Below, piece by piece: positions 4,807 through 28,727 of a stretch of DNA of 28,727 nt. The position numbers and the translations under genes were made by a program. Each line of letters opens with the position of its first letter. Within the stretch, counting starts at the first letter, position 1. The stretch spans positions 1 to 28,727 of the IMG/VR virus record IMGVR_UViG_3300042465_001063; one strand, written 5' to 3'. This stretch comes from a virus. The notes under the pieces are model-generated. The model worked only from the letters and a program-made list of their open reading frames with translations. It was not told where the DNA came from and ran no database searches.

Positions 4807-5058
4807 TTACTCCACTTGTTTTTTGATTACAGTCAGCATAATCTTGGCTTTCTTTTGCTCCAGAATTTCTGAAGCCAATAAGCCCCGAAGCTGATCTGAA
4901 AACAAATTTAATTCTTCACGATCATGTTCAGAAAGTAATGCAATTTCTTCCAAAGCAAGCGTGTAGTTGTCAATGTTGATTTGATAGTGCATGACCTCTT
5001 GGATTCGTGCGCTCAAAGCGTCCATTAAAATTTGTTTTCGGTCAAGGTTTACGTTCAT
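4807..5058 (-). CDS. Small conserved phage protein (83 aa)
   Basis: Function unknown. The protein is predicted almost all helical, with patterns LDRKQILMDALSARIQEVMH and YTLALEEIALLSEHDREEL, and a Lys-rich C-terminus (ILEQKKAKIMLTVIKKQVE). The ATG at 5058 is preceded by AAAGGA at about 9 nt. An open extension upstream lies inside the end of the beta-propeller gene and lacks a ribosome site, so I do not use it. It sits 13 bp after the propeller and 3 bp before the assembly chaperone gene. A role as a small chaperone or capping factor for the tail proteins is conceivable from context only. Confidence 0.72.
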   Translation of the reverse strand: MNVNLDRKQILMDALSARIQEVMHYQINIDNYTLALEEIALLSEHDREELNLFSDQLRGLLASEILEQKKAKIMLTVIKKQVE

Positions 5059-27882: not shown

Positions 27883-27911
27883 TTGACAGGTGTTTACACA
27901 CTAGTGATATC
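27883..27911 (+). promoter_or_regulatory. Candidate rightward promoter
   Basis: A perfect TTGACA (27883-27888) is followed after 17 bp by GATATC (27906-27911), a fair -10; TATCAT two bases further is an alternative at 19 bp. The spacer contains GTTTACAC (27892-27899), so a protein binding that octamer would compete with RNA polymerase. Transcription would read the structured leader and the two rightward genes. The -10 match is imperfect. Confidence 0.5.
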
Positions 27912-27961
27912 ATTCGTCCATGCACTAGCAATGGTGCGGTGAACGGCCCACAATAAGGTCG

Positions 27962-28018
27962 GTCTGAGGCGAAACCCAAGGGAAGCTTGGGAGCAAGTCA
28001 GACAGGGTTCAGCCCTGT
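27962..28018 (+). ncRNA. Structured 5' leader RNA of the rightward genes
   Basis: A perfect outer stem GTCTGA (27962-27967) with TCAGAC (27998-28003) encloses a hairpin CCCAAG-GGAAG-CTTGGG (27975-27991). Immediately after it comes CAGGG-TTCAG-CCCTG (28003-28017), which could stack on the outer stem. It lies about 50 nt downstream of the candidate promoter and about 105 nt upstream of the first gene. It could be an attenuator, antitermination or protein-binding RNA. It matches no tRNA or riboswitch class that I know. Confidence 0.45.
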
Positions 28019-28068
28019 AGCAGTCCACTGTGACGCTAGATAAAACATCCCATATGTGATGCCAATGT

Positions 28069-28101
28069 GATGCCCATGCTGTGGGCATTGCAGTGCCATC
28101 C
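28069..28101 (+). repeat. Leader hairpin element, copy 1
   Basis: GATGCCCA followed by a 5-nt loop and TGGGCAT forms a 7-bp stem (28070-28076 with 28082-28088). It is followed by TGCAGTGCCATCC. The same arrangement and almost the same sequence recur at 28415-28444 ahead of the next gene, at the same distance from the start codon (about 35 nt). It lies between the structured leader and the SD GGAGAG of the gene at 28124. A 10-nt direct repeat, ATGTGATGCC, overlaps its left side (28054-28063, 28065-28074). Confidence 0.6.
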
Positions 28102-28123
28102 CGCACATTACTGGAGAGACACC

Positions 28124-28405
28124 ATGCAAATCACCCTGACCCACGTTCAAGCCCACTGCCTTGCCATGCTCAAGGCCGCCCAGCGCAACTTCAACAAGAA
28201 CCCCAACAGCACCCACTTTGAAGTGCTGACCCATGCCATGTTGACCCACCAGCAAGCCCAGCACATCACCCGTGTTCTCCGTACAAAGGACGACATCAAC
28301 TTGATGCTTGCGCAACTGTCCGCCCTGCCGCTGGGCGACTGGCCCGACCTGATCGTTGAACGTGCCACTGGCTTGACCATCCGTGCCGTACTGACCGCCG
28401 CCTGA
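28124..28405 (+). CDS. Small rightward phage protein (93 aa)
   Basis: Starts MQITLTHVQAHCLAMLKAAQ, then NFNKNPNSTHFEVLTHAMLT, HQQAQHITRVLRTKDDINLM and LAQLSALPLGDWPDLIVERA. Mainly helical, His/Gln/Leu-rich, no catalytic motif that I recognise. The ATG at 28124 has GGAGAG 4-5 nt upstream; an upstream in-frame ATG at 28067 lies inside the leader hairpin and is rejected. It is the first gene of the rightward block and probably early. Codon use is richer in C-ending codons than in the late genes. No homologue can be named. Confidence 0.7.
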   Translation: MQITLTHVQAHCLAMLKAAQRNFNKNPNSTHFEVLTHAMLTHQQAQHITRVLRTKDDINLMLAQLSALPLGDWPDLIVERATGLTIRAVLTAA

Positions 28406-28414
28406 TTTCAGCCT

Positions 28415-28444
28415 GATGCCCTGCGGGGCATTGGAGTGCAATCC
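28415..28444 (+). repeat. Leader hairpin element, copy 2
   Basis: ATGCCC (28416-28421), a 4-nt loop and GGGCAT (28426-28431) form a 6-bp stem, followed by TGGAGTGCAATCC. It matches copy 1 except for a shorter loop and three substitutions in the 3' part. There is no U run, so it is not a plain terminator. It lies 37 nt before the ATG at 28469, and a GTTTAAAC (28445-28452) follows directly. Confidence 0.6.
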
Positions 28445-28468
28445 GTTTAAACACCTGAAAGGAACCTC

Positions 28469-28727
28469 ATGCCTACCATTACCCTGCGCCGCAAAGACGG
28501 CTCTGAAATCGAGACCGTCAAGTCACACCTGCTGGTCTGCCATGCTGGGTCTGTGACCCACACCCTTCACCTGCACCGGGATTCCCTCGGCTTCTGGGCC
28601 GTGTCTGACCCCCGCTCTGGCGGCAAGGTCTTGCACGTTGTCGGGCAGTTCAAGGGACTGCCTGTTGCGTCCAATGGCATGACCCTGCGTGAGATCAGAG
28701 GCTCTGCCCAGCAACAGATCGATGCCC
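28469..28727 (+). CDS. Rightward phage protein, N-terminal part (cut by right edge)
   Basis: Open from ATG at 28469 to the window end (86 full codons) with no stop. AAAGGAA precedes the start by 4-5 nt. Reads MPTITLRRKDGSEIETVKSH, LLVCHAGSVTHTLHLHRDSL, GFWAVSDPRSGGKVLHVVGQ and GMTLREIRGSAQQQIDA. Beta strands alternate with loops; several His are visible but no metal or catalytic motif is clear. It is preceded by the same hairpin element as the gene before it, so the two are probably regulated alike. Function unknown. Confidence 0.7.
   Translation, partial: MPTITLRRKDGSEIETVKSHLLVCHAGSVTHTLHLHRDSLGFWAVSDPRSGGKVLHVVGQFKGLPVASNGMTLREIRGSAQQQIDA

Follow-up and report, generated by a model that had tools for sequence, protein, structure and literature searches.

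A family of structured RNAs of about 53 nt, with three helices (P1, P2 and P3) backed by covariation, was found in arrays of small phage genes, where it lies after a gene's stop codon and ahead of the SD sequence of the gene that follows. In related phages the same position is occupied by type I hammerhead ribozymes. These data suggest that the element either makes cuts between the genes of the phage messenger RNA or marks where they occur, and it is most likely an intercistronic mRNA-processing header. The role of the ribozymes of phage and bacterial operons has been unclear so far, and the presence of two unrelated RNA folds in one stop-to-SD position, ahead of the same genes in sister phages, makes the purpose of these ribozymes directly testable. 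The data also define a compact RNA-plus-gene cassette, which varies between phages at one site.

The window, which is the whole stretch of 28,727 nt that was analysed, is a virus record of 28.7 kb, in which the genes for terminase, portal, capsid and endolysin are oriented leftward, and both copies of the element are located at the right end, ahead of rightward genes. The features of this region are as follows.

27883..27913, + strand: promoter-like TTGACA-N19-TATCAT ahead of the leader (weak)
27939..28044, + strand: structured leader RNA, about 105 nt, 5′ of the first element copy
28055..28107, + strand: pseudoknot element copy 1, heading the first array gene
28056-28061 and 28097-28102: P1 5′ and 3′ strands of copy 1, with the junction CCAAU at 28062-28066
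28067-28075 with 28083-28091: P2 of copy 1
28092-28096 (AGUGC) and 28103-28106 (GCAC): P3 5′ and 3′ strands of copy 1
28124..28405, + strand: first cassette gene, 93 aa, no assigned function
28401..28450, + strand: pseudoknot element copy 2, beginning at the TGA stop of the preceding gene (28403-28405)
28404-28407 (GAUU) with 28440-28443 (AAUC): P1 of copy 2
28413-28421 with 28426-28434: P2 of copy 2, followed by AGUGC at 28435-28439
28445-28452: GUUUAAAC, replacing the P3 3′ strand in copy 2
28469..28727, + strand: second cassette gene, MPTITLRRKDGSEI..., running past the window end

The sequence-only reading of this DNA had described a hairpin duplicated ahead of both rightward genes. Indeed, GATGCCC-N-GGGCATTG occurs at exactly two sites in the window, 28069-28090 and 28415-28433, and at none in 100 dinucleotide-preserving shuffles; as claimed, the GGGCAT arm ends 35 nt before the ATG in copy 1 (28124) and 37 nt before it in copy 2 (28469), and neither hairpin is followed by a U run. 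The stem described there corresponds to P2, which additionally contains two wobble pairs and a C-G/G-C pair, while its extent was underestimated, because the true element is larger, spanning 28055-28107 and 28401-28450. The sequence-only reading had missed the outer helix P1 and the third helix P3, and it had not noted that the element overlaps the upstream stop codon, that a structured leader precedes the first copy, and that hammerheads can take its place. The scores of the two copies against the covariance model CM R1, 67.9 bits (E=1.6e-15) for copy 1 and 56.1 bits (E=1.9e-12) for copy 2, are affected by the fact that sequences matching both copies exactly or almost exactly were used to build this model. 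The element does not have the GC stem and U run of an intrinsic terminator, and no terminator-like site was detected in the window between 27350 and 28727.

From the 5′ end, the element consists of a 6-nt P1 strand, a 5-nt junction YCASY, the P2 hairpin, the P3 strand AGUGC, the 5-6-nt partner of P1 and the P3 partner GCACU, followed by a spacer, the SD and the start codon. P1 and P2 both covary in the 43 seed sequences, where the P2 values arise partly by construction; P1 is independent evidence, because the seeds were gathered by P2 and not by P1. In the alignment of 118 distinct rows, which was fitted to P1 and P2 and is hence biased towards them, 89.5% of the cells of these helices were paired versus 71.6% after shuffling, and the covariation score was 0.399 versus 0.115 for shuffled alignments and at most 0.062 when columns were slid by 1-3 positions. 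Each of the six pairs in P1 and nine pairs in P2 showed two-sided changes in this alignment, and the P1 variants were as different as GAUG/CAUC, GAUU/AAUC, GACAUU/AAUGUC, AAGAGC/GCUCUU, GACUUA/UAAGUC and GACAGA/UCUGUC. The U.G and G.U wobble pairs are conserved in 99 and 93 of the 118 rows. The previous proposal that the element acts at the RNA level is thus supported by stems that covary in relatives.

P3, which was part of no model, could form at least four of its five pairs in 83 of 96 distinct segments (base-composition null 33); the loop measured 5-6 nt in 81 of these. Two of its positions show two-sided changes (AGUGG/CCACU and AGUAG/CUACU) in divergent copies located mostly ahead of a SprT-like gene. 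Since P1 crosses P3, an H-type pseudoknot results, in which the loop of P3 is fully paired, and on the basis of these pairings the family is best described as such a pseudoknot with an extra hairpin. The nucleotides A10 (100%), A43 (98%), C12 (93%), C9 (86%) and GUG (98-100%) are nearly invariant. P3 is absent from 13 of the 96 segments, among them a subclass to which window copy 2 belongs, along with copies in L003, L007, L053, L054 and others; this subclass has a conserved palindrome GTTTAAAC in place of the P3 strand. The AGUG sequence is retained even where P3 cannot form, which argues that it has a role beyond this helix. In the first copies of one lineage (L018, L035, L048, L023, L036 and L097) P1 is replaced by GCTGCTTGCAGC, for which a small separate hairpin is predicted; this hairpin would cover the conserved junction. 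Among the nested folds of the element, the most stable is a long hairpin with CA paired to UG inside the internal loop; it competes with P3, so that switching between the pseudoknot and this hairpin is possible.

A fully paired six-base loop is known from the pistol and pseudoknot hammerhead ribozymes (PMC11300833), which also resemble the element in the short stem that bears this loop, 6-bp pseudoknot helix, adjoining second hairpin, length of about 50-60 nt and phage context (PMC4604425; PMC11300833). The element differs from pistol in the order of helices, with the pairing strand first and the loop hairpin last, and in having no P2 closing helix, and Rfam pistol gave no match at E<=10. More generally, searches of Rfam release 15 (4227 families) at gathering and permissive thresholds gave no family spanning the element: there was no match to its region of the window at E<=10, and in eight relatives none covered it at E<=2. 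The Polynucleobacter-1 RNA (RF01718), which is in Rfam, was also considered and gave no match. Hence, the element is an RNA family absent from Rfam and previously uncatalogued; the open-licence literature contained no description of such a phage arrangement, while an earlier description in subscription journals is possible.

The first strict pattern search of IMG/VR returned 52 stretches, nearly all followed by an SD and ATG. A covariance model made from 43 sequences matched each of the 51 virus records that were searched first; a record contained 1-5 copies (E<=0.001), in most cases within about 2 kb of one another. With a second pattern, 70 viral stretches were obtained; 22 of the loci were new, and all of these fitted the model or had the element. 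One further copy was present in the hammerhead-bearing contig L124, so that 23 contigs beyond the first 51 records contain the element. The combined alignment included 134 matches, 118 of them distinct. All but a few copies come from one phage family and from one site divergent from terminase, as seen in virus records that are fragments. The expectation of more copies ahead of other genes is thereby borne out in dozens of viral contigs; the sequence-only reading was to be abandoned if no further copies existed and the stems were not conserved, and the opposite was observed on both counts. Four matches of this second pattern in bacterial genomes were read as chance: all fall in apparent coding sequence, with neither P1 nor a following SD and ATG. 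The model gave no match in the cultured phages nearest by TerL, and a direct search of cultured-phage DNA did not reveal the element. Weak matches (23 bits) in L127, L132, L179 and L185 were not counted, because they resemble a different hairpin. This other, unassigned stop-to-SD hairpin, GTAATCCTGATGCCC-TTCG-GGGTATCGGGATTGC, for example at L132:3064-3114, is located in a different phage about 400 nt from a hammerhead.

Copies of the element occupy stop-SD junctions and are in the sense orientation. For 118 copies a start codon was called by rule, and 106 of these end 12-20 nt before it (median 16.5). The stop codon of the preceding ORF is located within 7 nt of the element start in 72 of 130 copies, and in 67 at its first 1-3 nt; many of the copies without a nearby stop are first copies, positioned after the leader, whereas later copies of an array begin at the stop of the gene before them. 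The SD follows directly 3′ of P3, outside the structure. Several small riboswitches are pseudoknots near SDs, and the constant distance to the SD and ATG, the stop codon inside or beside P1 and the conserved junction bases would each also fit a translational operator or coupling device, in which the pseudoknot sets the translation of each gene by binding a protein or by coupling to a ribosome that finishes the preceding gene at the stop inside P1. This explanation has a minor but real share of the probability, as the structure leaves the SD uncovered.

The array is divergent from TerS/TerL in nearly all contigs, with TerL 64 to 100% identical to that of the window across the loci compared; L107, from a different lineage (TerL about 35%), nevertheless has a copy in which P1 and P2 pair perfectly. 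Thus, a constant RNA header stands before variable genes within syntenic flanks. The proteins encoded downstream fall into 46 unrelated clusters, including SprT-like (a match below Pfam's own cut-off, with cultured-phage homologues annotated as SprT-like), RadC and DUF6011, which means that the RNA rather than the gene is conserved. Although a compact pseudoknot ahead of the SD could suggest a metabolite riboswitch, this is very improbable, because these clusters share no metabolic function, up to five copies occur in one operon, and bacterial genomes gave no real match. The difference in cassettes between phages at one syntenic locus could also be explained by a DNA-level feature without a role in RNA, such as an operator or a site of cassette-exchange recombination. 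There is very little chance of this, since the conserved wobble pairs and the covariation independent of spacer length make sense only in RNA, and the sense-strand placement at stop-SD junctions also argues against it.

Hammerheads first came to light in two arrays, from a permissive search with Rfam; a core pattern then identified 15 type I hammerheads with complete cores in the same arrays and the same stop-to-SD position. The core pattern performed better than the Hammerhead_HH9 model, which alone missed about half of them. The core, CUGANGA ... GAAA ... UH with three stems, is present in these 15 neighbouring headers and absent from the element. In 14 aligned hammerheads 100% of the cells were paired, and pairs of stems I and II had changed on both sides. 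In most of them the TGA of the CUGAUGA core is the stop codon of the preceding ORF, and the GUC site is 24-28 nt from the next ATG in the 14 clear cases. Examples are located at L047:8218-8270, L020 (reverse complement, 4975-5027) and L049:1097-1149.

The two folds are exchanged ahead of orthologous genes. A gene that follows a hammerhead in L047 follows the pseudoknot in L037, L034 and L003, which encode proteins 92%, 91% and 85% identical, respectively. The same was observed for L027 versus L020 (81%) and for L036 and L048 versus L100 (51-52%), while the L047 homologue of the first cassette gene of the window (64.5% identical) is headed by a hammerhead instead. Because an unrelated fold changes places with a ribozyme before one gene, both should do the same job; a ribozyme is an unlikely stand-in for a protein operator, which argues against translational control. 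Since the job of the hammerhead is cutting, and new classes have been found by such association, the exchange favors a self-cleaving header and makes it a leading possibility beside the putative recognition by a protein or RNase that the sequence-only reading had suggested.

In the mechanism we propose, the header, copied ahead of successive small accessory genes in one rightward phage operon, would cut the polycistronic transcript, or mark where it is cut, after the stop codon of each gene and before the ribosome-binding site of its successor, and so convert it into single-gene mRNAs. We infer that a cut occurs, that the RNA itself makes it and where it falls; the likeliest route would be self-cleavage by a new class of small pseudoknotted ribozyme acting in the hammerhead position. 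To our knowledge, only about ten classes of natural self-cleaving ribozymes are known, and the element is plausibly a new one, as it shares with such classes a covarying secondary structure and a genomic association with known self-cleaving ribozymes. New classes have previously been discovered beside known ones (PMC10085705; PMC4604425). The closest arrangement is that of the clustered hammerheads of phages and prophages (Perreault et al. 2011, PMC3088659), which also form several headers per transcript between genes, some directly before a start codon, and hammerheads are present in these arrays as well. All of those clustered in polycistronic RNAs cut in vitro, yielding single-gene mRNAs, and in one case tandem cutting between genes was also observed in E. 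coli (PMC3088659). The element differs from them in its fold and in the absence of a CUGANGA or GAAA core, and is a candidate for cleavage only. Self-cleavage is weakened by the small number of near-invariant unpaired residues (A10, C9 and C12) besides AGUG, which is below that of typical small ribozymes, by the loss of P3 in 13 of 96 segments and of P1 in the first copies of one lineage, and by the competing nested fold. We therefore hold self-cleavage by the header tentatively, as a little short of an even chance.

The element may instead be cut by a protein nuclease, such as host RNase III or a phage endoribonuclease; a cut is to be expected, because it occupies the ribozyme position. In its nested fold it forms an irregular hairpin that is almost continuous, and the copies without P3 retain P1, P2 and the internal loop. 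In the early region of phage T7, RNase III sites are irregular hairpins with an internal loop, located before the ribosome-binding sites of successive genes, which the element resembles in its nested fold; it differs from them in its conserved sequence and third helix, and cutting by RNase III would be hypothetical here. RNase III needs little sequence, yet A10 and AGUG are nearly invariant, and P3 covaries, which makes this explanation unlikely.

Hammerheads ahead of an SD and ATG are also widespread in other phages, in at least 120 stretches. The contigs L122-L236 contain at least about 110 distinct hammerheads, many directly 5′ of the SD and ATG, and among the hammerhead matches listed a convincing pseudoknot score was obtained at 1 of the 90 loci examined.

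The leader ahead of the array is itself a structured RNA. Its hairpin GUG-AACGGCC-CAC has a loop that pairs with a downstream GGUCG, in addition to stems A, B and C, and the loop and its strand vary as CGGCC/GGUCG, CAGCC/GGUUG and CGUGC/GUACG. In an alignment of 16 sequences 98.1% of the cells were paired, ten pairs had two-sided changes, and none of 500 shuffles reached either value, or the covariation score of the alignment. The leader is conserved in 24 distinct sequences ahead of arrays, and its region gave no Rfam match; that it acts in antitermination or regulates the array as a whole is a guess. The promoter-like sequence upstream of it, which a scan with spacers of 16-18 did not pick up, has an N18 spacer and TATGAT in relatives. 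The region 28124-28727 of the window, like all the arrays, is a hypervariable island of small ORFs without known function, divergent from terminase, and plausibly such an island is a site for host-takeover or anti-defence genes.
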